Below are positions 602 through 61,180 of a DNA stretch of 64,000 bases, piece after piece. Source of the DNA: Sthenelais limicola. Its lineage: Eukaryota; Annelida; Polychaeta; Phyllodocida; Sigalionidae. Where the stretch lies: contig OW804094.1 in assembly GCA_942159475.1 (NCBI GenBank), forward strand, positions 10,051,555 through 10,115,554, in the 5' to 3' direction. The notes under the pieces are model-generated. The model had not been told where the DNA came from and searched no databases. It saw only the letters and a program-made list of their open reading frames with translations. A program made the translations under genes and the position numbers. The stretch's first letter is position 1. Each line of letters begins with the position of its first letter.

Positions 602-715
602 CTTTTGTATAGAGTGCTAGCGGTGCGGTGGTAAGCAGGATGGTCATCGGCTGACCGCCAATGAGGGCAAATATCAAACCTCCAAGTGTCTGAGAGTAGA
701 AGACCTTTTTCACAT
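602..715 (-). CDS. SLC4A11: Exon E10 (residues 372-409), last exon in the window
   Basis: The acceptor is TTTGTGTTGCAG and the donor ACAAAAG|GTAAGT; phase 1 at the 3' end. It encodes [20 protein letters not shown] and then [17 protein letters not shown]. The vertebrate match is nearly residue for residue ([30 protein letters not shown]). This is the substrate-site region shared by all SLC4 proteins. The following exon must start beyond position 1. A family A element begins 33 bases inside the next intron. Confidence 0.96.
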
Positions 716-3700
716 CTGCAACACAAACAATAGCCATTAGAACTAGTTTTGAGAACGGAACTTCTCGCAAAATCACGTACTTTGTGGAATGATTTTCATA
801 TCATATATATAAGAAGGTTATTTGAGACAGAAAAAACCATGGCCTTCCACCCACTGCTGTGTCTAGCTATACTAGGCTCTATGTAAAAACTTAATGAATG
901 ATAGACTTGCATCTAACCACTAAGAATAAGATAATAACTTTAATAAGAATAACTTTACTAACAAGCAGGCATTAGGAAGAACGCCGAAAGACGATGCTCT
1001 GTGATTGTTGTATACTGCTTTAAAAAATAATAAAAAATAGAAAAAAATAGAAGGGACTATGTAATTTTGTCTATATATAGATCACGGCAAATTGTCTTGA
1101 AAATCGCCTGAATTAACTTTTGGGCGAAGTGTTCGTCTGCAATTTTTCTGTTGAATGTGAAAATAAAATTCTTTAAAAGAAATACCTACCCATCTTTCCC
1201 TTAGTGTTTGTATCGTTGAATACATATCAACATAGAATAGGCTATACCTACCCATCTTTCCCTTAGTGTTTGTATCGTTGAGTACATATAATGAATGATA
1301 CTATAGACTCTACCTACCCATCTTTCCCTTAGTGTTTGTATCGTTGAGTACATATAATGAATGATACAAGGGACTCTACCTACCCATCTTTCCCTTAGTG
1401 TTTGTATCGTTGAATACATATCAACATAGAATAGGCTATACCTACCCATCTTTCCCTTAGTGTTTGTATCGTTGAGTACATATAATGAATGATACTATAG
1501 ACTCTACATACCCATCTTTCCCTTAGTGTTTGTATCGTTGAGTACATATAATGAATGATACAAGGGACTCTACCTACCCATCTTTCCCTTAGTGTTTGTA
1601 TCGTTGAGTACATATAATGAATGATACTATAGACTCTACCTACCCATCTTTCCCTTAGTGTTTGTATCGTTGAGTACATATAATGAATGATACTATAGAC
1701 TCTACCTACCCATCTTTCCCTTAGTGTTTGTATCGTTGAGTACATATAATGAATGATACAAGGGACTCTACCTACCCATCTTTCCCTTAGTGTTTGTATC
1801 GTTGAGTACATATAATGAATGATACAAGGGACTCTACCTACCCATCTTTCCCTTAGTGTTTGTATCGTTGAGTACATATAATGAATGATACTATAGACTC
1901 TACCTACCCATCTTTCCCTTAGTGTTTGTATCGTTGAGTACATATAATGAATGATACTATAGACTCTACATACCCATCTTTCCCTTAGTGTTTGTATCGT
2001 TGAGTACATATAATGAATGATACAAGGGACTCTACCTACCCATCTTTCCCTTAGTGTTTGTATCGTTGAGTACATATAATGAATGATACAAGGGACTCTA
2101 CCTACCCATCTTTCCCTTAGTGTTTGTATCGTTGAGTACATATAATGAATGATACTATAGACTCTACATACCCATCTTTCCCTTAGTGTTTGTATCGTTG
2201 AGTACATATAATGAATGATACTATAGACTCTACCTACCCATCTTTCCCTTAGTGTTTGTATCGTTGAGTACATATAATGAATGATACTATAGACTCTACA
2301 TACCCATCTTTCCCTTAGTGTTTGTATCGTTGAGTACATATAATGAATGATACAAGGGACTCTACCTACCCATCTTTCCCTTAGTGTTTGTATCGTTGAG
2401 TACATATAATGAATGATACTATAGACTCTACCTACCCATCTTTCCCTTAGTGTTTGTATCGTTGAGTACATATAATGAATGATACTATAGACTCTACCTA
2501 CCCATCTTTCCCTTAGTGTTTGTATCGTTGAGTACATATAATGAATGATACTATAGACTCTACCTACCCATCTTTCCCTTAGTGTTTGTATCGTTGAGTA
2601 CATATAATGAATGATACTATAGACTCTACCTACCCATCTTTCCCTTAGTGTTTGTATCGTTGAGTACATATAATGAATGATACAAGGGACTCTACCTACC
2701 CATCTTTCCCTTAGTGTTTGTATCGTTGAGTACATATAATGAATGATACTATAGACTCTACCTACCCATCTTTCCCTTAGTGTTTGTATCGTTGAGTACA
2801 TATAATGAATGATACAAGGGACTCTACCTACCCATCTTTCCCTTAGTGTTTGTATTGTTGAGTACATATAATGAATGATACAAGGGACTCTACCTACCCA
2901 TCTTTCCCTTAGCGTTTGTATCGTTGAGTACATATAATGAATGATACTATAGACTCTACCTACCCATCTTTCCCTTAGTGTTTGTATCGTTGAGTACATA
3001 TAATGAATGATACAAGGGACTCTACCTACCCATCTTTCCCTTAGTGTTTGTATCGTTGAGTACATATAATGAATGATACAAGGGACTCTACCTACCCATC
3101 TTTCCCTTAGTGTTTGTATCGTTGAGTACATATAATGAATGATACTATAGACTCTACCTACCCATCTTTCCCTTAGTGTTTGTATCGTTGAGTACATATA
3201 ATGAATGATACTATAGACTCTACCTACCCATCTTTCCCTTAGTGTTTGTATCGTTGAGTACATATAATGAATGATACAAGGGACTCTACCTACCCATCTT
3301 TCCCTTAGTGTTTGTATCATTGAGTACATATAATGAATGATACTATAGACTCTACCTACCCATCTTTCCCTTAGTGTTTGTATCGTTGAGTACATATAAT
3401 GAATGATACAAGAGACTCTACCTACCCATCTTTCCCTTAGTGTTTGTATCGTTGAGTACATATAATGAATGATACTATAGACTCTACCTACCCATCTTTC
3501 CCTTAGTGTTTGTATCGTTGAGTACATATAATGAATGATACTATAGACTCTACATACCCATCTTTCCCTTAGTGTTTGTATCGTTGAGTACATATAATGA
3601 ATGATACAAGGGACTCTACCTACCCATCTTTCCCTTAGCGTTTGTATCGTTGAGTACATATAATGAATGATACTATAGACTCTACCTACCCATCTTTCCC

Positions 3701-6700
3701 TTAGTGTTTGTATCGTTGAGTACATATAATGAATGATACTATAGACTCTACCTACCCATCTTTCCCTTAGTGTTTGTATCGTTGAGTACATATAATGAAT
3801 GATACTATAGACTCTACATACCCATCTTTCCCTTAGTGTTTGTATCGTTGAGTACATATAATGAATGATACTATAGACTCTACATACCCATCTTTCCCTT
3901 AGTGTTTGTATCGTTGAGTACATATAATGAATGATACAAGGGACTCTACATACCCATCTTTCCCTTAGTGTTTGTATCGTTGAGTACATATAATGAATGA
4001 TACTATAGACTCTACCTACCCATCTTTCCCTTAGTGTTTGTATCGTTGAGTACATATAATGAATGATACAAGGGACTCTACCTACCCATCTTTCCCTTAG
4101 TGTTTGTATCGTTGAGTACATATAATGAATGATACAAGGGACTCTACCTACCCATCTTTCCCTTAGTGTTTGTATCGTTGAGTACATATAATGAATGATA
4201 CTATAGACTCTACCTACCCATCTTTCCCTTAGTGTTTGTAACGTTGAGTACATATAATGAATGATACAAGAGACTCTACCTACCCATCTTTCCCTTAGTG
4301 TTTGTATCGTTGAGTACATATAATGAATGATACTATAGACTCTACCTACCCATCTTTCCCTTAGTGTTTGTAACGTTGAGTACATATAATGAATGATACT
4401 ATAGACTCTACATACCCATCTTTCCCTTAGTGTTTGTATCGTTGAGTACATATAATGAATGATACTATAGACTCTACCTACCCATCTTTCCCTTAGTGTT
4501 TGTATCGTTGAGTACATATAATGAATGATACTATAGACTCTACCTACCCATCTTTCCCTTAGTGTTTGTATCATTGAGTACATATAATGAATGGTACTAT
4601 AGACTCTACATACCCATCTTTCCCTTAGTGTTTGTATCATTGAGTACATATAATGAATGGTACTATAGACTCTACCTACCCATCTTTCCCTTAGTGTTTG
4701 TATCGTTGAGTACATATAATGAATGATACTATAGACTCTACCTACCCATCTTTCCCTTAGTGTTTGTATCGTTGAGTACATATAATGAATGATACAAGGG
4801 ACTCTACCTACCCATCTTTCCCTTAGTGTTTGTATCGTTGAGTACATATAATGAATGATACTATAGACTCTACCTACCCATCTTTCCCTTAGTGTTTGTA
4901 TCGTTGAGTACATATAATGAATGATACTATAGACTCTACCTACCCATCTTTCCCTTAGTGTTTGTATCGTTGAGTACATATAATGAATGATACAAGGGAC
5001 TCTACCTACCCATCTTTCCCTTAGTGTTTGTATCGTTGAGTACATATAATGAATGATACTATAGACTCTACCTACCCATCTTTCCCTTAGTGTTTGTATC
5101 ATTGAGTACATATAATGAATGATACAAGGGACTCTACCTACCCATCTTTCCCTTAGTGTTTGTATCGTTGAGTACATATAATGAATGATACAAGGGACTC
5201 TACCTACCCATCTTTCCCTTAGTGTTTGTATCGTTGAGTACATATAATGAATGATACTATAGACTCTACCTACCCATCTTTCCCTTAGTGTTTGTATCGT
5301 TGAGTACATATAATGAATGATACAAGGGACTCTACCTACCCATCTTTCCCTTAGTGTTTGTATCGTTGAGTACATATAATGAATGATACAAGGGACTCTA
5401 CCTACCCATCTTTCCCTTAGTGTTTGTATCGTTGAGTACATATAATGAATGATACTATAGACTCTACCTACCCATCTTTCCCTTAGTGTTTGTATCGTTG
5501 AGTACATATAATGAATGATACTATAGACTCTACATACCCATCTTTCCCTTAGTGTTTGTATCGTTGAGTACATATAATGAATGATACAAGGGACTCTACC
5601 TACCCATCTTTCCCTTAGTGTTTGTATCGTTGAGTACATATAATGAATGATACAAGGGACTCTACATACCCATCTTTCCCTTAGTGTTTGTATCGTTGAG
5701 TACATATAATGAATGATACAAGGGACTCTACATACCCATCTTTCCCTTAGTGTTTGTATCGTTGAGTACATATAATGAATGATACTATAGACTCTACCTA
5801 CCCATCTTTCCCTTAGTGTTTGTATCGTTGAGTACATATAATGAATGATACTATAGACTCTACATACCCATCTTTCCCTTAGTGTTTGTATCGTTGAGTA
5901 CATATAATGAATGATACAAGGGACTCTACCTACCCATCTTTCCCTTAGTGTTTGTATCGTTGAGTACATATAATGAATGATACTATAGACTCTACCTACC
6001 CATCTTTCCCTTAGTGTTTGTATCGTTGAGTACATATAATGAATGATACTATAGACTCTACCTACCCATCTTTCCCTTAGTGTTTGTATCGTTGAGTACA
6101 TATAATGAATGATACTATAGACTCTACCTACCCATCTTTCCCTTAGTGTTTGTATCGTTGAGTACATATAATGAATGATACTATAGACTCTACCTACCCA
6201 TCTTTCCCTTAGTGTTTGTATCGTTGAGTACATATAATGAATGATACAAGGGACTCTACCTACCCATCTTTCCCTTAGTGTTTGTATCGTTGAGTACATA
6301 TAATGAATGATACTATAGACTCTACCTACCCATCTTTCCCTTAGTGTTTGTATCGTTGAGTACATATAATGAATGATACAAGGGACTCTACCTACCCATC
6401 CTTCCCTTAGTGTTTGTATCGTTGAGTACATATAATGAATGATACAAGGGACTCTACCTACCCATCTTTCCCTTAGCGTTTGTATCGTTGAGTACATATA
6501 ATGAATGATACTATAGACTCTACCTACCCATCTTTCCCTTAGTGTTTGTATCGTTGAGTACATATAATGAATGATACAAGGGACTCTACCTACCCATCTT
6601 TCCCTTAGTGTTTGTATCGTTGAGTACATATAATGAATGATACAAGGGACTCTACCTACCCATCTTTCCCTTAGTGTTTGTATCGTTGAGTACATATAAT

Positions 6701-9700
6701 GAATGATACTATAGACTCTACCTACCCATCTTTCCCTTAGTGTTTGTATCGTTGAGTACATATAATGAATGATACTATAGACTCTACCTACCCATCTTTC
6801 CCTTAGTGTTTGTATCGTTGAGTACATATAATGAATGATACAAGGGACTCTACCTACCCATCTTTCCCTTAGTGTTTGTATCATTGAGTACATATAATGA
6901 ATGATACTATAGACTCTACCTACCCATCTTTCCCTTAGTGTTTGTATCGTTGAGTACATATAATGAATGATACAAGGGACTCTACCTACCCATCTTTCCC
7001 TTAGTGTTTGTATCGTTGAGTACATATAATGAATGATACTATAGACTCTACCTACCCATCTTTCCCTTAGTGTTTGTATCGTTGAGTACATATAATGAAT
7101 GATACTATAGACTCTACATACCCATCTTTCCCTTAGTGTTTGTATCGTTGAGTACATATAATGAATGATACAAGGGACTCTACCTACCCATCTTTCCCTT
7201 AGCGTTTGTATCGTTGAGTACATATAATGAATGATACTATAGACTCTACCTACCCATCTTTCCCTTAGTGTTTGTATCGTTGAGTACATATAATGAATGA
7301 TACTATAGACTCTACCTACCCATCTTTCCCTTAGTGTTTGTATCGTTGAGTACATATAATGAATGATACTATAGACTCTACATACCCATCTTTCCCTTAG
7401 TGTTTGTATCGTTGAGTACATATAATGAATGATACTATAGACTCTACATACCCATCTTTCCCTTAGTGTTTGTATCGTTGAGTACATATAATGAATGATA
7501 CAAGGGACTCTACATACCCATCTTTCCCTTAGTGTTTGTATCGTTGAGTACATATAATGAATGATACTATAGACTCTACCTACCCATCTTTCCCTTAGTG
7601 TTTGTATCGTTGAGTACATATAATGAATGATACAAGGGACTCTACCTACCCATCTTTCCCTTAGTGTTTGTATCGTTGAGTACATATAATGAATGATACA
7701 AGGGACTCTACCTACCCATCTTTCCCTTAGTGTTTGTATCGTTGAGTACATATAATGAATGATACTATAGACTCTACCTACCCATCTTTCCCTTAGTGTT
7801 TGTAACGTTGAGTACATATAATGAATGATACAAGAGACTCTACCTACCCATCTTTCCCTTAGTGTTTGTATCGTTGAGTACATATAATGAATGATACTAT
7901 AGACTCTACCTACCCATCTTTCCCTTAGTGTTTGTAACGTTGAGTACATATAATGAATGATACTATAGACTCTACATACCCATCTTTCCCTTAGTGTTTG
8001 TATCGTTGAGTACATATAATGAATGATACTATAGACTCTACCTACCCATCTTTCCCTTAGTGTTTGTATCGTTGAGTACATATAATGAATGATACTATAG
8101 ACTCTACCTACCCATCTTTCCCTTAGTGTTTGTATCATTGAGTACATATAATGAATGGTACTATAGACTCTACCTACCCATCTTTCCCTTAGTGTTTGTA
8201 TCATTGAGTACATATAATGAATGGTACTATAGACTCTACCTACCCATCTTTCCCTTAGTGTTTGTATCGTTGAGTACATATAATGAATGATACTATAGAC
8301 TCTACCTACCCATCTTTCCCTTAGTGTTTGTATCGTTGAGTACATATAATGAATGATACAAGGGACTCTACCTACCCATCTTTCCCTTAGTGTTTGTATC
8401 GTTGAGTACATATAATGAATGATACTATAGACTCTACCTACCCATCTTTCCCTTAGTGTTTGTATCGTTGAGTACATATAATGAATGATACTATAGACTC
8501 TACCTACCCATCTTTCCCTTAGTGTTTGTATCGTTGAGTACATATAATGAATGATACAAGGGACTCTACCTACCCATCTTTCCCTTAGTGTTTGTATCGT
8601 TGAGTACATATAATGAATGATACTATAGACTCTACCTACCCATCTTTCCCTTAGTGTTTGTATCATTGAGTACATATAATGAATGATACAAGGGACTCTA
8701 CCTACCCATCTTTCCCTTAGTGTTTGTATCGTTGAGTACATATAATGAATGATACAAGGGACTCTACCTACCCATCTTTCCCTTAGTGTTTGTATCGTTG
8801 AGTACATATAATGAATGATACTATAGACTCTACCTACCCATCTTTCCCTTAGTGTTTGTATCGTTGAGTACATATAATGAATGATACAAGGGACTCTACC
8901 TACCCATCTTTCCCTTAGTGTTTGTATCGTTGAGTACATATAATGAATGATACTATAGACTCTACCTACCCATGTTTCCCTTAGTGTTTGTATCGTTGAG
9001 TACATATAATGAATGATACAAGGGACTCTACCTACCCATCTTTCCCTTAGTGTTTGTATCGTTGAGTACGCCGAATGCGATGGAGGGCAGAACACAGGCG
9101 AAGTAGAGGAAGACAACGGTGGAGGCTGTCTTCTGTAACGTCCTGTGGCCAACCACACCTGCAGGAGACACAAGTAGTAGTATTGCAATCATCTTTGTAT
9201 ATAAAAATTTTGAAACTTGATGCTTAATTGGATATTTTTTGAAGATATTCTATTGAAGTTTTCCAACTGTGGTATTTTGGTTGAATCATAAGTATGAGTA
9301 ACTGTTGCTGTTTAGGTTAGTATATTTCTTCTTGTATAATGCTAGGCAACGCAGGAAAACATTGACCACGTCGACATGCGTCTTTATTATTATGATTAAA
9401 TGTATGGCCTGTTTGTAATAAAACAAATAACTGTATTCGATAAAAATAATATGTTGGTGAAATATTGATTGGAACATAGATATCTTCATTGTCATTGTCA
9501 CTTTTTTTGTAAGTTACTTTTTCGCCAAACACGGACGTTGGAAGTGCATTAATGAAACACATGTGATGTGTTGGAGGAAAACGAGTCACAAGTCTAAAAA
9601 AATAGATTTTGAGATATCATCATATTTGAAACCATGAGATCAAGCGGATTCCAATGATAGTAAACTGTAGAACTTTTGATCAGTATTTCTATATTTTAAA

Positions 9701-12700
9701 TTTGATATCTTTGAAAAATATTTCTGCGTGGCCCATTACTAGTAAAGTAGCTAAAAATACTCTATAGGATGATCTTAGAAACGCATGTATATATTTAATA
9801 CACAGCCTTGAAATTTGGTACATGTATTCATACGACGTAAAACGGCACATCCTCCAAAAATGAGAACATTCCCACCAAGAGATCTTGTCAATAAGAGATT
9901 GAAAAATATCAATTTTGCGACTTGTGACTCATTTTCCTGTAACACATCAAATATACGGATTATATTCTCGCATGGCCTGTAGTATAAGGTTATCTGATCT
10001 TGTAGATCAGAACTAATATCAAGGCCCTAAACCACTGCAAAGGTGATGTTACTATGTGATATGGTCCTCCTGACTTAATATGAGAGCTGTTGCAAGCAAA
10101 GAGCTTGCTCCTCTGGACAAAGTTATCATTTTAATCACTATTATTACTACTATTATTACTACTTAAAACATATTAGTTCTTTTTGACTGGGATAAGATGC
10201 GAACTTTTTAAAACAAAATTAATCTAAACCTAAACAATTAGCAATAAGCAAGAAGGCAGCGCCTGAAAACGTTCACGATGGATAGTGGGTTTTTTTTCTT
10301 GTAATATCTGTATTAAATATCTTATTAGCCTGAAATGTAATTTTTAAAAAAACACCAGAAATGGTTTTCAGTGAACGACAAAAACTCACCATCCTTGAAG
10401 TCAGATGCATAGTGAGGCAACCGTCGCCAGAAATCTTCTCGAAGTCCGGCGCCAAAAAGACATCGGTCTTTGGTCTGCAGAGAGAGAAACAGTGAATTAT
10501 AGGCTTAGCTGACAGTGGGTGTGGAGAGACCAAACTCATTTTTTTTCTATTTTATTCAAAGCTATTTGAAGACCATCTTTTAAAGATATTCTACCCTGTT
10601 ATTCCACATAACCTCGCATGTAAAATCCTCCTAGTTTTCTAAGTGTACAGTTTTCCTTCAAGGTCTGCCATTCATATTAATGAGCCACATATGGATAGTT
10701 AGTAATATGTAAATATTCACATGTTTAAAAACTTTCTGAACAATTTTTATCTTATTAAGTTCTATCTTGCGCGTGGTGCTGTTTGCACTAAATTTAAAAT
10801 ATGTAAACCAATCTCTGCAAAGGCCTCCCTACTGTCGTCGACCCTAGGGAGTATTGTTACCTTTGCACATAAAATGAATAATATTACTACGGTAGGGCTT
10901 TAGATCCTCCCTATGTAGGGAGTTTAGTTCCCACCGATAGTGTCGTTTTGTACACATTTAAGTACAGATAATTAGGTTCTAACCGAATCAATAGGCGAGT
11001 GAACCAGGTGGGTCAGATTTTCAGAAAATGCACAATCGCCAGCTCTACACATCTATCAAATTCTGCTAAATTAGAGTGAAAAGTTATAAATACTAGGTAT
11101 ATCTGAGTGTATTCTGTATTGTATTCATTCAATAAATCTTTCTGGATATGTTGAACTGTATTCTGAACCTAATTTTCTTTTTAAATTTGAGTTATTTGAG
11201 AGGATTGGTGAAGGCCAATTGTACATTTTCTGAAGACTTGATCCCCATGCTCCTAATATTTGGTATTAAAGTTTTTTATTCAGACAAAAGCATTGTGTAA
11301 CAGGTACATTATTCTCAAAGTTTGCTGACTCTAATTTTAACAAGTATTTATACAAATTATTTAGTGCCGATGTTGATCACAAAAAAGATTATTTATCTGT
11401 AAGCAAATAGACAATAAAATACTAATACATAGATGTATAAAAGCGAACACCAGCGCGTTGTTCAACATCATGGCAGTCATATAAATATTTCATCTAATTC
11501 TTTCTGCATTATCAAATAGTCAAAAATATGTATTCGCACGAGCAGACATTACACTAATTAATATGAAATACAGCTACATTTAACCCACCCCGTTTTACCC
11601 ACCTTTATCTCATCTTCCAGGTCGGATTTGTCCCCAGAGAGTTTGCGGTCAGGATGGCTCTGCTCTTCAGCCAACTCCTTAGTGTGTTCCCAAAGTAACT
11701 TCTTAAACTCATCCTCCGAGTGAACCGCCAACAGCTTCTGTCTCAGTTCCATATCAGCAAAGAGTGTAGCAAACGTCCTGCCCGTCTCCAAGGCGTTCTT
11801 TGTGCCTTTCTGTTAATAATAACAACGATATTTTGTTTATTTTGGCAAATAGGTACATTTAGACACAGAACAAGACATCTTATGTGTTCCAGTAAAATGA
11901 GTCACAAGTGGCAAAATTGATATTTTGCAAAGTGTTTTATTCACAAGATCTCTTTATTCAAATGTTCTGATTTTTAACGGGTTTAGCACTCAGTCATATC
12001 AATCCATGTTACAAATTCCAGGACATTGTATTAAATATATCCCTGCGTTTTGAAGGCCTTTGTATGGTGTATATTTAGTTGCTTTACTGGTAATTACCCA
12101 TCCAGAAACATTGCAATCTTTTAAAAAAAAAAATAAAAAAATATCAAACTTAAAAATATATAGAAATACTTATTAGGTGTCCTAGTGTTTACTATCATTA
12201 GAACCACCTTGATCTCCTCTTTTCAAATATGGTTATATCTCAAAGTCCGTATTTTGCGACATATGACTCAATTTCCCAAAACGGATCACATTTTATTTTT
12301 CATTTTGGCAAATAAAAAATGTTTTTAAAATAGCGTTTGATTTGAAAAGCAGATTCTCATTATGTTTCATGAATTATCCAATCTCATCAGATATTAAAGT
12401 TTTAGAGTATTAAATTCTTTTGAAGCCAAATTCAATTAATTAATTCAATACATCAAATAAATGATATATTGAATTAAATTGAAGTTGCTAATTGTGTACA
12501 CGTTGTCTTGGCGATCTGAGTATAATAAGTAAATGTCACCTCAGTCAGGGGTGTCTTTGTCTTTATACAGAGTATGATCAACTGTGTTTTATGAGGTAAC
12601 TTTCTATGTGATGTGTTCCAGGACAATGAGTCACAAGTCGCGGAAAATGGATTTTGGAATTTGAGATCATCATATTGGAAACTAGAGATCAAGCCGATTA

Positions 12701-15191
12701 CTAGTAATTATCCACTCAAAAAAACTTTTTTTTCAAAAATAAGAATATCAAACCTAAAATATAGAAATACTTAGTAGCTGTCCTGATGTTTACCAACATT
12801 GGACTCCGCTTGATCTCATCTTTTCAAATATGATGATATCTCAACATGAATTTTGTTGTGCCTAATGACTCATTTTCCTGAAACACATCATATTTGGTTA
12901 TGGTCTTACCTCCTTGGTGGGGGCCACAACCAGGATTAGGAAGTATACTTCCTGACTGGTGCGCCCAAGATTGGCTGGAGTCCGGAGTCGGGCGATGGCG
13001 ACATGGCGTTTGGTTAGGGTAGGCATCGTACATCTAGAAATACATCAATACTCAATATTACAGAGAATAGATAATTGTAAATTCCCATGTTTGGTTAGGG
13101 TAGGCATCGTACATCTAGAAATAGATCAATACTCAATATTACAGAGAATAGATAATTGTAAATTCCCATGTTTGGTTAGGGTAGGCATCGTACATCTAGA
13201 AATAGATCAATACTCAATATTACAGAGAATAGATAATTGTAAATTCCCATGTTTGGTTAGGGTAGGCATCGTACATCTAGAAATAGATCAATATTCAATA
13301 TTACAGAGAATAGATAATTGTAAATTCCCATGTTTGGTTAGGGTAGGCATCGTACATCTAGAAATAGATCAATACTCAATATTACAGAGAATAGATAATT
13401 GTAAATTCTCATGCATTGTGCCAAAGATATGGCCTCACTTCCATGCAATCTCCTATATGGGTCAGATTTTAAGAAAATGTACAATTCACCTTTACCAATC
13501 GTCTCAAATAACCCACATTTAAGACTAAAATGAGCTTCAAAACATAGTTTAACACAGCTAAACAGATACTTTAAATCAACACGATACCAAATATACCCAG
13601 ATATACCCGGTACTCATCATTTTTCAGCCTAATTTTGCAAATTTCCTAAATGTGTAGAGCTGACAATTGTACATTTTCTGAAAATCTTCCCATATATGTT
13701 TTAACAGGAAATTTTAAGTGCAGTGACCAATTGAGATACATGAAACAGTATGCCATATAATGGGTCTGACTTTTAAGGAAACAATCGAACGTCCGGAGAC
13801 TAGGAGGACTATTGAGAGAAGGAAATGCCTTAAATCCGCAACAGGAATCTGGTATTTCCATGTGTGAAAGACCCTCATTTGCTCGTATATTCACTTCCTC
13901 ATTGGCCTGGGGTATAGGCAGAGTGACTATTTTTAGCAATAGAAAATGCTGACCAATGAGAGGGCCGGATGGGATAATGCCGGCTCAGCGTTTTTTCTAC
14001 AGAGGTAAGTGGGATAACAAATGTCCAAAACCCTAATAACTAACGTTACGGACTCAAACTGGGTCCGATAACTATTATCGATGCCTATTTGGAATATTTA
14101 GAATTCATGGACTATTTTCATTAATTTCTCTCAAATTATTCTCAATTGGAAATAAATAGATATATGGGTCAGATTTTCAGAAAATGTACAATTGGCCTTC
14201 ATCAATCTTCTCAAATAACCCAAATTTCAGACGAAAATAACGTTAAAAACACAGTTCAACCTAACCAAACTGATTGCTAGAATCACTGCAATGCCAAATA
14301 TACTCGAATTTACCTAGTATTGACCAAATTTCAGCTTAATTTAGCAGAATTTACTAATTGTGTACAGCTGCCAATTGTACATTTTCTGAAAATCTGACCC
14401 ATATACGAAGGTTTTTGTTCATGTTTTGGGTTTACTAGATCCCCCTATCTCCCTTATCTCTACCACTAATACTAGGCCGGGCACATCGGAATGATAAGAT
14501 TAGAAGATGAAGCTCGTTAATATCAGACTAAGTAGTAACCGGAGGGCAGGCAGAGATGAAAGTACGGATGGGAAACTGGGCGATTGGGTGGTACACAGGG
14601 ATTCTTAGCTTCAAAGGTACATCGGGAGACGAATGGAGGGAGGGAGTGTGTGTGTATGGGTCAGATTTTCAGATAATGTACAATTCACCTTCACCGATCC
14701 TCTCAAATAACCCACATTTAAGACAGAAATAAAGTTCAAAATACAGTTCAACCTAGCCAAACAGATAGCTAGAATCACTGCAATGCCGAATATACTCGAA
14801 TGTACCTAGTATTGACCAAATTGCAGCCTAATTTAGCTGTTTACAGCTGCCATTTGTACATATTCTGAAAATCTGACCCGTATGTGTAGGGGGGGGGGGG
14901 GATAGATGGAAGGTAGGTGGGTGATTGCAGTGAAGTATAACAGCAGGAAGGAATAGCAATGGAAAGAAAGAAGAAGATGATGAGAGAGAGGGAGGAAAAA
15001 ACAAAGGGACGGGAGGGAAAAGAGGGGGAGGCAGATGAGAAAGGAGAGGGGGAGAGAGAGGGGGAGAGAGAGAGGAGAAAGAGAGAAAGGAGAGAGGGAG
15101 AGAGAGGAGGGAGAAAGGAGAGGGTAGAGAGAGTAGAGAAAAAGGAGAGAGGAGAGAGAGAGTGAGAGAGGAGAGAGAGGAGAGAAAGGAG

Positions 15192-15249
<58 letters not shown>

Positions 15250-18200
15250 GATGGGAGGGAAAGGAGGGAAGTGAAAAAGTAAGTGGGGATAAGAAAGGAA
15301 TGAGTGACTGAAGGTAAAAGGAAAAGTGTGACAGATAGGAGACAGTAGGATAAAACATTAGAAAAGGGAAGGAGACAAGCAAGAGAATGAAATATGCCAA
15401 ACGAAGAGAGGTGTGGTGGAGAAAGGACAAAATACGATGGCAACTGGAGGAGGAATAACAAGGGCAGGTATGAGAAAGACAAGGGGGGAGGGCAATGATG
15501 AGATAAAGGGGGATAGAGTAGGGATACAGATACTGTGGGACACACAGAGAGAATCACAGATAACCTGGATATCAATAGCCAATCGCAGGCCATATCAGAT
15601 GTCACATGACCTATAGATGAGCTCTAGCAAAGACTCACTCACCGACTGTCCCTGCCCCTAGTGAGATCTGTTGAAACTACTGTTAAAACTGCAGCTAAGG
15701 CCAAAAAAAAAATAGGTGTGTTTCCGATTTATCTGGCTGAAAACTAGGTAGGGGGGGTGGATTTTTTTATTTTTTTTGTTAATTTTTTTTGTTTGGAAAC
15801 CAGCTCCCAGGAACTGAGAAAAATGTCTTTTTCATAACAATAGTTGTTTTGAACATGGGAAATGTGCTTTTTGAGTTTCAGGTTAGCAAAACACATTTTC
15901 CTGCTTTTATAAGCTATTTTGTCAAAAAATGCAAAAAAAGTAAGATATGATGGGGAAAAAATCAGATATGGTAAAACAAATTTTAGGTAGGGTAAGGTTT
16001 TTCTAGGTAGGGGTGGGGGTAAATCGGAAACACACCTATTTTTTTTTTGGCCTAACGTAAGTCAAAACTGAACATTTTCTACTTTTTGTTCTGTTCCTTA
16101 AAGTCATTACACCAAATTTCTGGAGGATTTTGTCCAGTAGTTATTGCTAGAGGGCTTCTAAAACGTCCTCATTTGTATTGGGAGGACCCGCCTCAGTCAT
16201 TTGTTATGATGACTTCACTTATTATCGCTCACCGGCGGCAGTTTTCTCTCGACGGTTAGACTCCAAATACCAACAGCGTAATATTAATAAATCCAGTCCT
16301 ACAAGTCATAACATGAGTGAATCTGGTAAGATGTGTTTTGTTGTAATAGCTGAGAAAGCAGCTTTAAATGGGTCGGAGGCTCAAGGGTGTAACGAACTTG
16401 TCCTATCTAGCCATGAACAAATGATACACTGTAATTTAGAGATCAGTCATGAAATTAATCTCAACGCCTTGTTTTGTTGTTTATTGTTTGCATATAATTA
16501 TAGAATCCTTGTACAAAATGACTGATTCTCTGCATCCTAAATAGAGAATGTAGAAAAAATATGGTCTTTTCACATTAAGATCAGTAGTATATTTTTAAAA
16601 TGTTAAAGTTGCAATAAGACCAAAAACCCTTTTGCCTGCCCAGATGGGTTTGAGAAGGGTATTTTATTTCTTTTAGATGTACATTATTTGAATCCAACGT
16701 TTCAGCGATGTTGTGATGCCTTCTTCAGGGATTGTCTATGTCTCTGAATTCGTGAGGAATATTAATAATGTGTATGATTGAAATTAGACCGTTGTCAAGG
16801 ACACATTGTCGTTACCATATGTGATGTGTTTCAGGAGAATGAGTCATAAGTCGGGAAAATTGGTTTTTGAGATATCATCATATTTGGAAAGATGAGATCA
16901 AGCCGATTCCAATGAATGTAAACATTAAGGACATCTAATAACAACTTTTATCCTTTTAGTTAGATACTTTTACTTTTGAAAACAATTTCCGATATTTCTA
17001 GGTGGATAATTACCAGTAAAGTAGCTAAATATGCTCAATAGGATGATCTAAGTAACGCACTGATATAATTGATAAACAGTCTTGAATTTTGGTGAATGTA
17101 TTCATACAACCACAAGGGCTAGACACTCCAAAGACGAAGATATTCCAACAAAGAGATCTTGTAAGTAAACAACTTTGAAAAACACCAATTTTGCGACTTG
17201 TGACTCATTTTCCTAAAACACATCACATATTTTAAAATATCTTACTTATAATGAACTTTCTATCGAGGAAATATGGAAATATGTCAAATACACATGGTAC
17301 CGGATTTCAGATGATTGGCCACTGATAAATACGGCACAACTATAGATTAAATTGGGCCAATGCCAATAGTCAATCCAGCACCCACAACTTCTACTGTGAA
17401 ATTTGCAACTGTTCTTGTCAAAAGGATGTTTGACGAAATGACTTTGTACAAATGACTTTGTATTTTTATACAATTCATTTGTAATGTGATTGCTCTTGCT
17501 GATTCTCAATGTTTAAGAGTAACCATAATAATAACAATATGATTAATAATAATGATGAGATGGTCTCATTATTTGAGAGTAAATCACTGCCTCACAGCCA
17601 GTCAGGCTCTCAGCCAATAACAATAAATTCTTAATTACCATGAACTTCAAAACATCACGAAACACCAGTTAAAAGAGTTTTATATCTTTGACACATCTGC
17701 TGGTGTGATTAGTCTATGGCTACAGCCAGGCAACCATCCTAGAGCCGTATGTGTGAGTATTCTTGCAACAGGCTTCATATGTGATCCGTTTCATTAAAAT
17801 GAGTCATACGTCGCAAAATATGGATTTTGAGATATCACCATATTTGAAAAGAGGAGATCAAGGTGATTCCAATGAATGTAAACGTTAAGGACATCTAATA
17901 AGTACTTTTATCTTACCTATTATGTTAGATATTTTTATTTATTTTTGAAAAAAAAGTTTGCAATATTTCTGGGTGGATAATTACCAGTAAAGTAGCTAAA
18001 TATACTAAGTAACGCACTGATATAATTGATAAACAGTCAACAAGGACTAGAGACTCCAAAGATATTTCAACAAAGAGATCTGGTAAGTAAACGACTTTGA
18101 AAAACACCAATTTTTAGACTTGTGACTCATTTTCCTGAAACACATCACATATTGAGAGGTTTGCCGCCATATGTTTTGGGTGGATGTTGAAATAAACGTT

Positions 18201-20665
18201 CTTCATTAAAGCACTACTCTCAGTTAACATCGGTCAACAACTGAACATTTTCTACTTCTTGTTTCATTCTTTTCCAACTCATCTAAAAGTCATTTGAGCA
18301 AAGTTTTGGAGGATTTTGTCCAATTGTTTTTGCTAGCCCTGACTAGTCACAATTACCACGCGATTCAGCATTGTTTCATGCAGTAGGTGCCGAGGATGTG
18401 GTATAGCCATATGTATGCGCATTCGTTTGCTCGGACAATAAGTTTTAACTTAATACTTCTTTGGGGACGTTGAAATATATTTTTTGTATTAATCGGAGTA
18501 TTGATTTTGACTATTGTAGGTCGCCCTGGCTCTTGACAATGAGCGTTTACGGCTTCCTGACAAGATTAAATACGCTGTCACAATCAGCTAGTGTATCAGC
18601 ATTATTTCATGCAGTAGATACTGAGAATGTTATACAATGCAAGTATTGCCCTAGCAGCCGGTTTTAATCCGTTATTCCTTATTGGGGTAATGTTGAATAA
18701 TGTCCCTTTCTTATAAGGATAGGCAGTAATAGTTTACAAGTTTTGTAATAGGGGGGTTGCATGTGCCACTGCGCATGCCTGTACAGTGCATCATGGGATG
18801 GATTCTTTTGAAATCTGACATACAAATATTTGGCATGATTTTGATCGAAAATGGCAAGAATGTCTTCACCAATATCAGAGCTTGTATTAATGATCTCTAA
18901 AAACCAAATGCATGATGGGAAAGATGGAGACGTGTGTCATGGAATCATGTATAATACAAAAATATTGATTTTAGAGCATTGAAAAATAGGCCATGCTGAA
19001 CATGATATGTTTTCAATAGATTTTAGACGGTACCATTAGTCCCATAATTCCATGTGAATCAAGATTCAAAATGGCGGCTATGCTAGTCCCCTATTAGATA
19101 ACATTGTATTTCTTTAAATTCTCATCTGACTACACCAGCTCTAAATACCGTTATTATTTTTATATTAGGGAGGTTCCGCAAGCAAACATCTCAATTACGT
19201 AACCATATCAATATCTTTTTTGTGAATTAAGTCATATTTTTATATAAACAAAATAAATTGTCAAATGCTGGCCATTATATATATAACTGACATTCCTGGC
19301 ATTCCATGAGAGTCAAATACATGATGCATTCCTCATTATAATTCTTTTGTCGGATTTATATCAGATAGTGTATTTATTTATTTTTAATAAATTTTATTGA
19401 CAAAGTTTCACAGAGTGATAGTTCTCATTCGTCTCATTCGTCATTTATGATTTTCACAATTTAAAAGCCAGCATGGATCGTTAACTCAGAGTAAAGGCAA
19501 TTTTCAAATTTGATTTTTCCAAATTGGACATTTTACAAAAAAAATAAAACAGGCATGCAATAAATAATGATTGATAAAAAAGAAATAGAACATTTACTTA
19601 CAGAACACATATCCATGATTGGTCGTAATCGATGCAACCGTTGTAGGTTATACACGTACCCTGGATGGTTTTGGCCAGTTTGTGAACTAGAAAAAGGACA
19701 GAGGCAAAAGATTAACATCTTATACGATAAAGCACTCATCATTTAAATTCCAATACTACATTTGGATCAGATTTTCAGAAAAATGTACAATTCACCTTCA
19801 CCAATCCTTTCAAATAACCCAAATTTAAGTAAAAAGTGGCGTTCAAAATGCAGTTTAACAGAATGAAAGAGATATTTTTAATCAATACAATGCCAAAGAT
19901 ACTCTGATATAGCAATTATTTATAGTTTTTCTGTCTAATTTAACAGAAGTTACCACATTTGTAGATCTGCCAATTGTACATTTTCTTAAAATCTGACCCA
20001 TTTACTGCTGACCATCTATAGGGAGAGCAAGAGAGAGTCAACAAGTCAAGGGAGTGTTTCTACATGTGGGTTGTTTACTGAGGTGCGAATCAAGACATAT
20101 AAGGTAGGGAGATCCGTTAATACATACTTATTCCATATTAGGCAATGCTGGGATAAACATGTGTTATAGTACTTTATAGGTTACAAAATGATGGGGAGGG
20201 AGAATTGAGAGAAATTGAGGGCGGGGGAGAAGGAAAGGGGAACAGAGGGGAGAGATATGGTAGAAAGAAGACATTGGAAGGGCGGCTGAGGGGAACTTGT
20301 TTAAAAAATGGTTGGGTGGGTAGAGTGAGAGAACATGAAAGCATGTAGATAGATATATACAAACATGTTGCATATAGATGGATCGGAAAAGGGGACAATA
20401 GGAAGGTAACGAGTAAGTGAGGGAACATGATGAAAACGATGTCCAAGGCGAAAAAAGAAAGATACGAGGCAAGGCCAGGGGGGGAGGTGTTTTTATTAAC
20501 ATTACATCAAGATCAATTGCTTAATGACAGACGTTTTTATATTAAATAGATTTATGTCATCTTTCCTACCTACTAATTATTCAATGGGATGAGTAGTAAA
20601 GACAGAGGAGGAGATAAAAATAGACAGACGGATAGGAAATACAGAGACAGAGAGGGAGAGATAGA

Positions 20666-23600: not shown

Positions 23601-26600
23601 ACCCTTAAATTCTCGTATATACCTCAAAGCCACTCCGTAATCCATCCCACAGTATGGAAGCACTTGAGCCTAGACCTAAATATGGGATGGTAACAATGTA
23701 ATGTGCCCACTCCAGTCATTGGCCTTCTCAAAAAGACACGTATGTGTGCCGTTAACGGCGCTATTTATGAAGGAAGGCAAATTCTGCAGAGGGTAGGAAA
23801 CTCGCTTGTTTCCTATTGAGGGAATTAAGCAATGAATATATAGAGTTTATACTAAAGCCAGCTGAACTGTTCATGAAGCTGAATCCTACATGGCATATAT
23901 ACGCTATTCTAGCGATGGGTGGCAAGAAATTAATGTATAAAATATAACATAAAGAGGGAACTACACTGGTTGCGGTAAGCTCTGCGGTAAGCCTTGCGAT
24001 GGTTTGTGCAGGTTCTGTAGGTGGTGAGGAATGATGAGGTCCTATCTACAGTGTTCACTGGCCATGTAGGCAGGACCTCGCCACTCCTCACCATCACAGC
24101 ACCATCACAAGTCTTACCGCAGAGCGACCGCAGAGCTTACGCAGCCAGTGGAGTCCCCTCTTTATACTGCAGGGGGAAGCCAGCTAAGCACTACATAACA
24201 TGCAGGCTAGTCTAACGCGGCTATACAGACATGTTCATACCCAAGTCACGTTGTGAATGGGGACTTTAAATATCACATTATCAATCAATTATGTCTGTAT
24301 TTCTGCGCCTAGTTTGGCTATGATGGTTGTTCTGATACAGCCAAGGTATGATGGCAATAGAGGGTGTCCCACACCACATGTGCATCACTTTATAGGGATG
24401 TATAGGTTGCAACTACCTTACAAGTATTCACTGTTAAACTCCAAACTCCTTTACAGCTCATCGCATGCTTAAACGGTGGTCTCCACTGGCTGTGGTAAGC
24501 TCTGCGGTAAGCTCTGTGGTAAGCCTTGCGATGGTGTGTGCTGGTTCTGTAGGTGGTGAGGAATGACGAGGTCCTTGCCTCCATGGTCAGTGAACGATGT
24601 AGGCATGACCTCGCCACTCCTCAACAACACAGCACCATCGCAAGGCTTACCACAGAGCAGCCAGTGGAGACTACCCTATATACAAGCGGTTCAGCCACTG
24701 TTGACATCTTTGGCGATGAGCTAGTTGATAAGAATTCTACACCTTCATGGGGGAATGGGGGAAGCAATGGCTGGTTACCAGAGGCTACATACTACAGATT
24801 TATTTTGGACAATTTGCCAATTTGGCGATGAGCTTATCGATAAGAATTTTGTAAAATTCTTACTGTAACTGCTGCTACAAGGCTTGTTCGGGTCTACAGT
24901 CTAGGCTCAAAGATGAGAGAGTCTCTTCAACCTGAGACCAAAATATTATTAAAATTCCATTAGGACACCTAGTCTTGGGCCAGGAAACCTATTAGCGCAG
25001 TAGGCGTCCAATCACTGACATCCCAATCTTATCTGAGAGGCTTTGAGCCTAGACTGTCCAAATAAATTTGCAAACAGGTTTGCTATGTCCTAGAAGCTTA
25101 CAGTACATGTTGACATGCCCCTCATGAATGAAAGGTGCATTAAATGATCTAATATATAATGTAAATACACAGATACATGAACGGGTATGTGTGTATAGAG
25201 TAGAAGATGCTGAACTTACAGTCTTCTATATGGTGAGAAAGGAAGATAGAAAGCAGAGAAAGTTTCAATATAACACATGAGGCACAATGTGTCCAAGTTG
25301 AGTTACAAGCCCTTGCGATCTTATTGCCACTTTTGTGCCATATTTGTAAGCACAGCAAACCACGTTTAGGTATTTAGAAGTAGTTATTTTATCATTGAAT
25401 GAGCAATGAGTTTCTTTTCAAATGTTTCTTATCGTGAACTGAAGAACCAAATAGGAAATTGATAATGATTTGCAATGAGGTCACAAGTATTTTATAATTT
25501 CGAGTATGATCCGGGTGAACCACAGGTGGTGTGATCCACAAATCAGTCGATAAACACTGCCTTGGATTAAAGACCACTGATGTCAATTAACAGATAGTCC
25601 ATATATTGCAGTATAAGCTGACAAAGGAAAAATGCAGAGTCATCATCATTTAGGTGGAAGGAACGGATTCCATGTATCCCCATGAACAAACGTTACCACA
25701 TCAATAATACATCTATAAACACATCAAGTTACCTGGTTGTGCTTTAGCTACAAATGCTGTAATTTTTGTAATTTTTTTTTTTTTAAAACATAGCAACATT
25801 ATTTCATCAATCCTGCCAACTAGGCTTCAACATTTCTAACACTCTCGCGCAAACGACCTTCTATATTCAAGCTACTTTTATTTTTTATTACAAGGACTTT
25901 GTTGACTTGCATTTTGTTTATTTTTTGTAGGTTTAATATGAATATAAGTTTGGTGGAGAACCCAAATGTTTCTGGTTGGCTGGAGTTGCTAGGAGAAGGA
26001 TATATACTGCAGGCCCTTCGCGCTTTTGGACTGAAGAAATTCAAGGCTTTTCAAGGCCTTTTCAGGCCCATTGAAGTGATTTTCTAGGCCAATATCAGTG
26101 AATTTAGAACCTAGATGACAGGACCTGGGGGTTGTAGTTATTGTTCTTCATATGCCATTGATTTCTTTAACAAGTTTTATATTCATATTTTATATCAATC
26201 ACCGTTTTTCAACTACTTTATGAGTCACTCTGTGGAAGGTGTACAGTGTACAGTAAGAAATGGCCATTTAATGGATTCCAATAGGATTCAAGGTTTTCCA
26301 GGCTATTCAAGGCCTTGAATTTATTTTTCCAATTTCAAGGCTTTTCAAAGTCCTACAGAGACCCTGTACTGTGATTGTCTACTGGATATTGGGATCTGAG
26401 CAGCGATGTTGGCAAGACATTCGCTTAAACTAACCAACTAAACATTTGGCCACATAGGTGCTACTTCCATCTGTATCCACCTGGTGTGCTATATATTAAA
26501 GGATTAATGACCGACATTGAGGGGCTGGTGATGCACTGTTTGGCGTAGCTGAGGGAATATACACAAACAGTGCACCAGCAGGCCCGAAATGGAGGTTATT

Positions 26601-32600: not shown

Positions 32601-35600
32601 AATTCCATGCGAATCGAGATTCATGATGGCGGACATGCAATTCCCCTACTCCCTGATGACAATTGACAAACTAATTGATGTCGACCTTCATAGATGTAAA
32701 TGATTTTAGCACTTGCATGAAATAAAAAAGATATTTAATACAAATATCTTTTTGTATTCGTTGTTTAATTCTTCTGACACGAGCGTTAAACAGCGGGACA
32801 GAGGACTACACTTTCAAAAAGAAAAACAGGATCTTGTTCAGTAGAAAGTTGAGGATTGTCCAAAAAGTTGTTTACGACTGCGAGTATGTGATTATATGAT
32901 AAGAAAAATCACTTTCCCAATATCACACTTGTTCATAAATAGCCAGCCTCCTTATTCCCATAGCTTTAACCAGTTGTGTATGTTGTAAACAAGCTATTGG
33001 ATAGGGTGGTGGTAGCCGTGGTGGTGATGTGATGCTGGATTTTATAGGTTACCAGTAATTGAAATGATCTCCAGAGAGGAAATTGACCGTGCTCCTAGGT
33101 TACCTATTTACCTCGTCCTCGCATACCAGTCTATCCCGCTTACAGCGACACATCGGTCAAAACAGAACATTTTCTATTTCTTGTTCCATTCTTTTCCAAC
33201 CCATCTAAAAGTCATTTGACTACAATCTTGGAAGATTTTGTCCAGTTGTTTTTGCTACCTGGCTTCTAAAACGTCCTTGTTTGTATGTGGAGGACCCGCC
33301 CGAATCCCTTCCTATGGTGACTTCACTTATTATCGCTCACCGGCGGCAGTTTTCTCTCAGTGATTAGACTTCAAATTCTTTCATATAACATATACCAGCA
33401 GCGGAAAATTGATAAATTCAGTCACATGAGCCATAATATAAATGAATTTTGCAAGATTTGTTTTGTTGTAATAGCTGAGAGTGCAGCTTTAAGGGTTGGT
33501 AGCACTAGGGACATTGGGAAGGACTTTTCTTGCAATAGCTCATTCACTGAGACATTGGTAATCGTAATCTTTATGTGGCCCATCTCATCAAAATGGATAG
33601 AATGAGTAGCCATGCAATCTCTTGAAACTTTTTCACTTCATAGGATAATTATGGCAGTATTTGAAATACAGAGTACCGACATTGTGTTTTGATTCAATAA
33701 TTCTGGAATAAGTGTGATAAATGGGCACAGAGAAATGGGTTCAGCCCCAATAGGGTGCTGCTCCCATGCCCGAAGTGGACAGAAAAGTAACTGCTGTCAT
33801 TCCTGAATGACCAATCACAACCCTGTATCTTCCGGTGACCATACCAAAAATAAATACAGTGAACTAGACCCCACCCCAAAACCGTTTTTAACTTTCACAG
33901 CGAAATGAATTTGCTCTCTGTTGCGACCAATATCTTTTAACATATAGATTACATAGTTTTGACATAACCAGGGATTAGTAAGTTCGGTTAAGGTGTACCA
34001 GACACTAGAAGATTGAGTAGAAATTCCATTACTTGTGAATCAAGGCCAGAACAGTAAGAAGTGTCACTTTAAATATGCATTACATTATATATACCTAACA
34101 ACTCTATATGTTCAGGTATAAATCTGGGAATTTATACATCTTTAGACATTGCCTTGAGGTGTCCAGGGGCTATAACAACCTAAGGCAGAGACTAAAAAGA
34201 TTAATAACCTCCATTGTGGGGCTGCTGGTGCACTGTTTGGTGCATAAACCCTCAGCTTCGCTTCGTACCTAACAGTGCACCAGCAGCCCTGAGATGAACG
34301 CCATTCATCCTTTAATATACGAAGCATGTATGTACATACATGCTTATAAAGGTATGTATATAAGGTAGTTCCTATAATAGTTATAACTATATATAGGCAT
34401 AACTATTATAGGAACTTGAATAAATCACGATAAGATTCACTGGCATCATTCTTATCAGGAGCCTCATATCCTTATCATCCTGAAATCTAAGAATGTTAGC
34501 AGCATCAAGCACCCAGGAGTAACAATAGATAACAGTAGATAAAGGTGCTGCTGATGAGATCAATTGTCATGTGTTCCAGGAAAATGAGTCACAAGTTGCA
34601 AAATTGATATTTTGAGAGTTTTATTCACAAGATCTCTTTGTAGGAAGTTTCTCATTTTTGGGGTATCTAACGCCGTAAGTCGTATTAATACATGCATTTA
34701 ATTTCAAGACAGTGTATTAAATATATCAATGCATTGCTAAGGTCATGCTATTGAGTATATCTGGCTACTTTACTAGCCACTGTCCCCTCAGAAACATTGC
34801 AAACTTTTTTTTCAAACATAAAAATACCACACTTAAAATATAGAAATATTTTTCATTTGCCTCAATGTTTACCATCATTGGAATCGGCTTGACCTCTTCT
34901 TTTCAAATATAATAATATCTCAAAATCCATATTTTGCGACTTGTGACTCATTTTCCTGAAACACATGACAATTGAACCAAACAAACCAGTCAATGAGATG
35001 AGATAAGATAAGGTGCCTCAGCCTACCTGAGTCATGGGTGAAGATGGCTCGTTTAGCCTCCTCAATGCTGGTGTTGGGCTCCTCATGATCAAGCAACATC
35101 TGAAGCATGCGCTCCAGGATGGCATCCGTGGAAGCATCTGACACGTCAAGAAGAAGCACCGCGGAGTTGAGGAAATTCTCCACATCCATCGATGCTCTAA
35201 TCTCAGCGCCGAAGTCTTTCATTGGGATTTTCTGAAATTGAATGGTTTATATGAATTTTTCAGGTTCCTGAAGGTTCAGGTTCATGTTTAGGTTCATGTT
35301 TGGGTTAATGTTTAGGTTCAGGTTTGGGTTAGGTTTAGGTTCAGGTGTTGGTTTAGGTTTAGGTTAAGATTCATGTTTAGGTACAGTTTTGGGTCCATGT
35401 TTAGGTTCAGGTTTAGGTTTAGATTCAGGTTTAGGTTCAGGTTGGGTTTAGGTTTAGGTTCCAGTTCAAGTATAGGTTTAGGTTTAGATTAAGGTTTGGG
35501 TTTAGGTATAGGTACAGTTTCGGGTTCATGTTTAGGTTCAGATGCCGATATTTATTGTAATAAACTACTTCTCCCATATAACCAACCATGCATAGCTTAG

Positions 35601-59777: not shown

Positions 59778-59931
59778 TTGACCTCTCTCTAGACTGACCA
59801 CTCAGGATTTAATTAAGGAAGAAGTGACCAGGACGCTAGTGACCACTACTGGTAGCAGTGGTCATCTCTGTGGCTGGAGAGATGATGGCCTAAGGTCTGT
59901 CTGCCCCTCCAGACTACATACCTTCACTAGT
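59778..59931 (-). promoter_or_regulatory. Sequence just upstream of E1 (5' UTR or promoter)
   Basis: This 154-bp stretch separates the start codon from the 32-bp array. It holds a short palindrome (GACCACTACTGGTAGCAGTG, near 59839) and no obvious TATA box. A weak CTAG acceptor-like site lies about 13 nt before the ATG. Placement as leader or promoter follows only from its position. Confidence 0.35.
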
Positions 59932-61180
59932 GGTGTAGATTAGACAGGATTATCTCCTCATGGGGTAGATTAGACAGGATTATCTCACCTCCAGGGGTAG
60001 ATTAGACAGGATTATCTCTCCTCCTGGGGTAGATTAGACAGGATTATCTCTCCTCCAGGGGTAGATTAGACAGGATTATCTCTCCTCCTGGGGTAGATTA
60101 GACAGGATTATCTCTCCTCCAGGGGTAGATTAGACAGGATTATCTCTCCTCCTGGGGTAGATTAGACAGGATTATCTCTCCTCCTGGGATAGATTATACA
60201 GGATTATCTCTCCTCCAGGGGTAGATTAGACAGGATTATCTCTCCTCCTGGGGTAGATTAGACAGGATTATCTCTCCTCCTGGGGTAGATTAGACAGGAT
60301 TATCTCTCCTCCTGGGGTAGATTAGACAGGATTATCTCCCCTCCTGGGGTAGATTAGACAGGATTATCTCTCCTCCTGGGGTAGATTAGACAGGATTATC
60401 TCCTCCTGGGGTAGATTAGACAGGATTATCTCTCCTCCTGGGGTAGATTAGACAAGATTATCTCTCCTCCAGGGGTAGATTAGACAGGATTATCTCTCTA
60501 CCTGGGGTAGATTAGACAGGATTATCTCTCCTCCGGGGGTAGATTATCTCTCCTCCAGGGGTAGATTAAACAGGATTATCTCTCCTCCAGGGGTAGATTA
60601 GACAGGATTATCTCTCCTCCTGGGGTAGATTAGACAGGATTATCTCTCCTCCTGGGGTAGATTAGACAGGATTATCTCTCCTCCTGGGGTAGATTAGACA
60701 GGATTATCTCCCCTCCTGGGGTAGATTAGACAGGATTATCTCTCCTCCTGGGGTAGATTAGACAGGATTATCTCCTCCTGGGGTAGATTAGACAGGATTA
60801 TCTCTCCTCCTGGGGTAGATTAGACAAGATTATCTCTCCTCCAGGGGTAGATTAGACAGGATTATCTCTCTACCTGGGGTAGATTAGACAGGATTATCTC
60901 TCCTCCGGGGGTAGATTATCTCTCCTCCAGGGGTAGATTAAACAGGATTATCTCTCCTCCAGGGGTAGATTAGACAGGATTATCTCTCCTCCTGGGGTAG
61001 ATTAGACAGGATTATCTCTCCTCCAGGGGTAGATTAGACAGGATTATCTCCTACTGGGGTAGATTAGACAGGATTATCTCTGCTCCTGGGGTAGATTAGA
61101 CAGGATTATCTCTAATCCTGGGGTAGATTAGACAGGATTATCTCTGCTCCTGGGGTAGATTAGACAGGATTATCTCCAGC
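59932..61180. repeat. 32-bp minisatellite, about 38 copies, upstream of E1
   Basis: Units contain GGTAGATTAGACAGGATTAT followed by CTCTCCTCC(T/A)G. Most are 32 bp; some are 30 bp and two are cut short at GGTAGATTATCTC. A 372-bp block containing the variants GACAAGATTATC and CTCTACCTG occurs twice (near 60451 and 60823). The array begins about 155 bp upstream of the candidate start codon, so it lies in the 5' flank or 5' UTR. Nearly every unit has GGATTA (TAATCC on the gene strand). Confidence 0.93.

Follow-up and report, generated by a model that had tools for sequence, protein, structure and literature searches.

The SLC4A11 locus and its two junction arrays

The window, the whole 64,000-nucleotide stretch of DNA analysed here, carries on its minus strand six exons of an SLC4A11 gene (A to F), two of whose splice junctions are repeated in tandem. 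The 5′ splice site of exon E is followed by a 66-bp minisatellite that fills most of the downstream intron, and the 3′ splice site of exon B is preceded by a shorter, 81-bp minisatellite. A first-pass annotation, made from the sequence alone, had presented the donor array only, overlooking the acceptor array at 13008–13413 in the same gene. The features that carry the argument are given below, with a slash marking the splice junction.

9036..9158, minus strand: SLC4A11 exon E (E9 in the first-pass annotation), 123 bp; genuine donor at 9036/9035; the last 34 bp are the exonic half of unit 1
1183..9069, minus strand: 66-bp donor-junction minisatellite, 120 donor-bearing units (119 extra)
602..715, minus strand: SLC4A11 exon F (E10 in the first-pass annotation); acceptor TTGCAG/ATGTGAAAA
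12910..13033, minus strand: SLC4A11 exon B, from which the acceptor array derives
13008..13413, minus strand: 81-bp acceptor-junction minisatellite, 5 copies (4 extra); 81 bp x 5.0 by Tandem Repeats Finder (TRF)

Anatomy of the donor-junction array

TRF delimited the donor array at 1183–9069, with a period of 66, 119.6 copies and 96% matches; it occupies 7853 bp of the 8320-bp SLC4A11 intron (9035–716). When the minus strand was split at the repeated exonic start, neighbouring units were spaced 66 bp apart in 117/119 cases and 62 bp apart in the other two. Unit 1 is the genuine exon end, composed of 34 exonic bases (9069–9036), the donor and 32 intronic bases, and the final unit breaks off after GTAGGTA, from where the intron is unique. 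The TRF result and the unit split bear out the first-pass description of the 66-bp unit as the exon's last 34 bases, the donor and 32 intronic bases, with 119 extra copies directly past the genuine junction and 120 units counting the genuine one.

The donor GT is retained in 120/120 units, as ATGG/GTAGGT in 101 and ATGG/GTATGT in 19; the genuine donor of exon E is of the GTAGGT type. The purine-rich exonic part had been described as present in every unit, and GGGAAAGATGG is in fact intact in 118/120. Two distal units (type K) carry a different 21-bp stretch following GTAGGTA. Their intronic part bears a weak likeness to the common one, equalled by 48/2000 shuffles for type A and 173/2000 for type B.

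The exact 17-mer spanning the junction, GGGAAAGATGGGTAGGT, has 99 matches in the 1.13-Gb genome, all of them within the donor array (reversed control, 0). As for paralogous arrays, no exact copy was returned outside the donor array. A hairpin around the donor was considered and rejected, since the folding of three unit types did not exceed that of shuffled sequences (z -0.33, +0.65 and -0.36), and the window has no match to a known structured RNA at Rfam gathering thresholds.

Exon E is the source of the repeated sequence

The six exons join in one open frame. Exons C to F match human SLC4A11 in PDB (E 4.9e-45), and the joined exons, an incomplete set, score 465.7 bits against the Pfam family HCO3_cotransp. 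Five more matches to this family (PF00955) lie outside the window on the same strand, where the gene continues. When the window exons are joined with those of locus L009, their identity to animal SLC4A11 proteins reaches 69% among the 120 listed of 1206 matches. The remaining exons of the gene in the window are as follows.

19602..19686, minus strand: SLC4A11 exon A
11603..11809, minus strand: SLC4A11 exon C
10390..10474, minus strand: SLC4A11 exon D
35028..35234, minus strand: probable upstream SLC4A11 exon; tblastn match to one protein, 37% identity, E 3e-8

The end of exon E encodes a conserved SLC4A11 stretch, with GSLNDENTDGAIDVQK as its human counterpart, and DVKK follows in the next exon. 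Because this stretch is conserved, it follows that the repeats were copied from the exon. A conserved exon end differing from the repeat had been proposed as the sign of a chance match; the 3′ end of exon E is conserved in SLC4A11 relatives and agrees with the repeat, which excludes chance. In a tree of 42 proteins (the window gene and 41 picked from the 120 listed matches), the window gene groups with Capitella, Helobdella and two metagenome proteins (support 100/99), and by this one gene the genome appears annelid-like.

The acceptor-junction array

The second array repeats the acceptor of exon B (13033–12910), which reads TTTCTAG/ATGTACGATGCCTACC or, written to another length, TTTCTAG/ATGTACGATG, and continues beyond. 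The unit at 13033 comprises 26 exonic and 55 intronic bases, and the genuine acceptor is preceded by four extra copies. The AG signal is present in 5/5 units, and an in-frame TGA is found in each of the four extra ones, so that using any of them would add a stop. In the minus-strand interval 35028–35240, the acceptor region of the probable upstream exon, CCATTCAATTTCAG/AAAATCCCAATGAAAGACT, has a second, slightly diverged and non-adjacent copy at about 35780–35743, some 530 bp upstream; an AGGTTC/AGGTTT array (35272–35538) sits between the two copies.

History and constraint of the donor array

The donor array has a higher-order structure, described by one further feature.

1810..8937, minus strand: two consecutive blocks of 54 units (3564 bp per block), with unit 3 as the starting point of the count; edges approximate

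The two blocks differ at 8/3564 positions, which marks a higher-order tandem duplication inside the array. At a lag of 54, the self-match of unit types is 0.80, where 500 shuffles reach at most 0.43, and there is an exact run of 17 units, where 200 shuffles reach at most 10. The repeat reflects either recent duplication of the block or its doubling during assembly. Among the 117 full-length units, 7/34 exonic and 5/32 intronic columns vary, and 6/7 of the exonic variants are non-synonymous. As the two halves vary alike and most exonic variants would change the protein, no coding constraint is seen on the copies; this comparison gives no support to a reading of the exonic part as kept by selection.

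Consequences of using a decoy donor

An in-frame TAG ends at nucleotide 8 past the genuine exon E junction. Full-length protein can therefore come from the first donor alone, and every downstream donor leads to the same truncation, in agreement with the earlier claim of a TAG eight bases on. GTAGGT pairs with U1 at a computed duplex energy of -9.5 kcal/mol, GTATGT at -6.0 kcal/mol. Among the 2981 GT dinucleotides on the minus strand of the window outside the array, 0.4% pair with U1 as strongly as or more strongly than GTAGGT, and 4.2% do so relative to GTATGT. Unit sequences and U1 pairing thus uphold the earlier description of the decoys as near-equivalent to the true site.

Junction duplications elsewhere in the genome

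Junction duplications recur in this genome. One myosin gene (L049, G000:C1:29858000-29864000) contains two small donor-junction tandem duplications. The one at L049:690-866 has a unit of about 53 bp (GCCTTCAAAAACATGTCCAG/GTAAAC) in four copies including the genuine one (690-823 plus a further copy at 847); the last copy lacks GT. The other, at L049:2498-2552, was found by TRF as 26 bp x 2.1 (ATTATCACCTTG/GTATGTATGAACAT), in an exon recognised as myosin by its motif. An SLC4 paralogue (L045:6758-6798, on G000:C6) has a 21-bp tandem duplication at a probable exon end and donor (TCTGATG/GTATGTATTCATT), the second copy of which reads GTTTGT. Another paralogue (L046/L021) carries a 46-bp x 2.5 array away from exon edges, and the other TRF arrays in the examined myosin loci are intronic or not at known exons. 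As a separate observation, neighbouring myosin-head matches at G000:C2:128950847-128950945 and 128951579-128951677 cover the same profile positions (120-152) and are perhaps alternative exons.

A nearby copy was found at 5/170 junctions (85 exons) and at 17/680 control points in the same loci; three of the five junctions belong to the preselected window. One exon (L049:2498) was put into this test by hand, which biases the junction count upwards, and some of the 17 control matches fall in dispersed elements or within junction arrays. The duplication at L049:690 is absent from the five matches. The 21-bp duplication in L045 came from this looser test, not from the exact 18-mer one. A hand count restricted to tandem copies, with L049:690 added by a looser criterion, gave 5/170 versus 4/680 (Fisher p 0.019). 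The loci L054 to L056 returned no junction match (26 junctions).

An exact 18-mer test of seven SLC4A11 exons in the window recovered the arrays of exons B and E and, for the 35-kb exon, one 18-mer within the hexamer array; the other four gave none. Of seven L009 entries, two of which overlap, one had 18-mers repeated 8.2 kb off and six had none.

Other repeats in the window

At 14180–14410 lies a dispersed element of about 225 bp that recurs in many places of the window (39 BLAST matches including itself, 25 of them listed, at 71–100% identity) and resembles a short mobile element. A second dispersed element of about 400 bp (9560–9960, 46709–47535, 16819–17230 and others) has ends that match each other inverted, in the manner of terminal inverted repeats; it gave 32 BLAST matches in the window, including itself and end pieces, with two head-to-tail copies at 46707–47537. 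A third dispersed repeat has inner 12-bp units containing GGTAAG (CTGTGGTAAGCT; other strand CTTACCGCAGAA) and occurs at 24490–24524 and 45095–45129, with matches at 23971 and 56554 and eight BLAST matches in the window including itself. Lastly, a 32-bp x 40 minisatellite (TGGGGTAGATTAGACAGGATTATCTCTCCTCC) spans 59931–61176, with no exon identified nearby.

Comparison with known systems

The first-pass annotation knew of no named class of minisatellite of this kind, yet there are precedents in the ‘mirages’ of amphioxus and in a human IFI6 minisatellite. Mirages are tandem duplications of exon-intron boundaries, described, in the available parts of the reports, in Adh3, the globin genes BflGb6 and BflGb9, TnC and PGBD5 (PMC3087553, PMC3902484). 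They affect both 5′ and 3′ boundaries, have units of 10 to about 160 bp, many with GT or AG signals, and undergo concerted turnover (PMC3087553, PMC3902484). The same excerpts mention one globin gene whose two haplotypes carry six and three units, somatic instability in Adh3 and a model of intron gain (PMC3087553, PMC3902484). By reverse transcription PCR of Adh3 and globin, mirages are reported, in the accessible text, not to interfere with regular splicing (PMC3087553).

The arrays described here share the mirage features that were tested. They are minisatellite tandem repeats (66 bp x 119.6 and 81 bp x 5.0), their units cross genuine boundaries at 9036/9035 (34+32 bases) and 13033 (26+55), and they keep GT in 120/120 donor units and AG in 5/5 acceptor units. 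With regard to variation in copy number, the repeat of 54 units offers indirect evidence of turnover. They differ in scale, with about 120 units (7.9 kb) against the two to seven copies given in the available passages, which state no copy number for Adh3 or TnC. They also differ in combining donor and acceptor arrays within a single gene, the extra units of each array carrying in-frame stops, and in belonging to what the SLC4A11 tree suggests is an annelid-like rather than a cephalochordate genome. In the literature searched, the name ‘mirage’ for such repeats turned up only in amphioxus.

The donor minisatellite of human IFI6 (6-16/G1P3) has a short unit of 12 bp. Described by Turri et al. 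(1995), it supplies multiple splice donors, as cited in the accessible portions of PMC4526556 and PMC2572611, and two downstream repeat units serve as donors, yielding three mRNA species (PMC4526556, available part). As in IFI6, the array at the end of exon E offers multiple potential donors (101 GTAGGT, 19 GTATGT); unlike in IFI6, use of a downstream donor would create a stop 8 nt on, and the gene is unrelated. Other human internal tandem repeats at exon-intron boundaries, with an average of four 30-bp units, may form new introns, and alternative transcripts are documented (PMC2812944, as far as its available text goes). They resemble the present arrays in their position at the boundary, and the human ones are described there as variable and able to alter gene structure. 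Among annelids, the earthworm metallothionein genes hold large intronic minisatellites, for which the accessible part of the report describes no junction-spanning units (PMC12783039). New here are the array size, the presence of both junction types in one gene and the annelid-like genome.

Interpretation and alternatives

We favour, with a probability of roughly 0.7, the reading that these are neutral minisatellites nucleated at SLC4A11 splice junctions and tolerated through use of the exon-proximal sites. The arrays would have been founded by two tandem duplications across exon-intron boundaries, of 66 bp at a 5′ splice site and of 81 bp at a 3′ splice site, and may have grown by ordinary tandem-repeat turnover to 120 and 5 units, with a recent duplication of the 54-unit block. 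The splicing machinery would mostly pair the sites beside the real exon, namely the first donor and the last acceptor, and the extra units would be removed along with the intron; rare use of a decoy would give an early-stop transcript, expected to be degraded. The arrays would be tolerated because all extra copies sit on the intron side and the machinery mostly pairs exon-adjacent sites. Tolerance of this kind fits exon definition. It also agrees with the amphioxus reports of normal splicing. The anatomy, the source exon, the frame, the stops, the 54-unit repeat in the assembly and the absence of visible coding constraint are direct observations, from which we infer exon-proximal splicing, neutrality and the fate of decoy transcripts.

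Several points weigh against this reading. The strength of the sites does not by itself single out the true ones, because most decoys match the true donor in U1 pairing (100/119 extra copies are GTAGGT) and the four extra acceptor copies have C where the genuine acceptor has G in its pyrimidine tract. The junction test revealed no enrichment of copies at junctions over other places (5/170 versus 17/680). The exact 18-mer test was negative at 0/30 SLC4-family loci and 0/24 SLC4 paralogue exon matches, which overlap with those loci, and positive for 1/34 myosin exon matches.

It has also to be asked whether the array is a regulatory decoy, with 120 U1-binding donors that titrate U1 or delay splicing; copy number would then set the share of productive SLC4A11 mRNA, and the rest would end at the TAG and be degraded. 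The near-equivalence of the donors in U1 pairing, the identical TAG at +8 for every downstream donor and the precedent of IFI6, where two downstream units are used and three mRNAs result (PMC4526556, in its available part), all speak for such a role. However, the copies bear no sign of selection (7/34 exonic and 5/32 intronic columns vary in 117 full-length units), the constancy of GT in 120/120 is uninformative with only 12/66 columns variable, and amphioxus mirages are reported, in the excerpt available, without disturbance of splicing (PMC3087553); we regard regulation as improbable. An artefact of length strikes us as unlikely, if somewhat less so: the assembly would contain the 54-unit block twice over, for example because both haplotypes went into it, and the true allele would have about 66 units. 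The 8/3564 differences between blocks are at a level that may suit allelic copies, but the 162-Mb contig suggests long reads, and block duplication of that kind is normal minisatellite turnover.

Junction arrays could also be made by a process that targets splice sites, for instance through R-loops or U1-bound nascent RNA, as opposed to chance tandem duplications; this we hold as a tentative, rather doubtful alternative. It would accommodate two multi-copy arrays on junctions of SLC4A11, a third exon with a duplicated acceptor region and junction duplications in two other genes. Of the seven longer arrays (period at least 25, at least 2.5 copies, score at least 100) in 194,406 bases, two coincide with known junctions, and these belong to the preselected window gene. 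The junction test, with three of its five positives in the preselected window, speaks against targeting by its lack of enrichment, as does the tandem-only hand count without the window (3/156 versus 4/624, p 0.15). That the likeness is accidental, or that an independent satellite was inserted beside the exon, is refuted by the conservation of the exon end, since its 34 bases code for a stretch conserved in SLC4A11; moreover, the exact junction 17-mer was returned from nowhere else in the genome.

Implications

The gene constitutes a natural test of splice-site choice, with about 120 near-identical donors in exonic context at one junction and an acceptor tandem at another, and a single productive choice at each. 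A bolder proposal, to which we give only about the same low credence as to targeting, is that the annelid-like lineage repeatedly amplifies splice junctions into minisatellites by a boundary-active process, as in amphioxus but on a far larger scale, and that the resulting hypervariable decoys may modulate output and seed introns. The arrays extend the ‘mirage’ phenomenon to what appears to be an annelid-like genome, which makes the distribution of such repeats among taxa, and the suggested connection with intron gain, testable.

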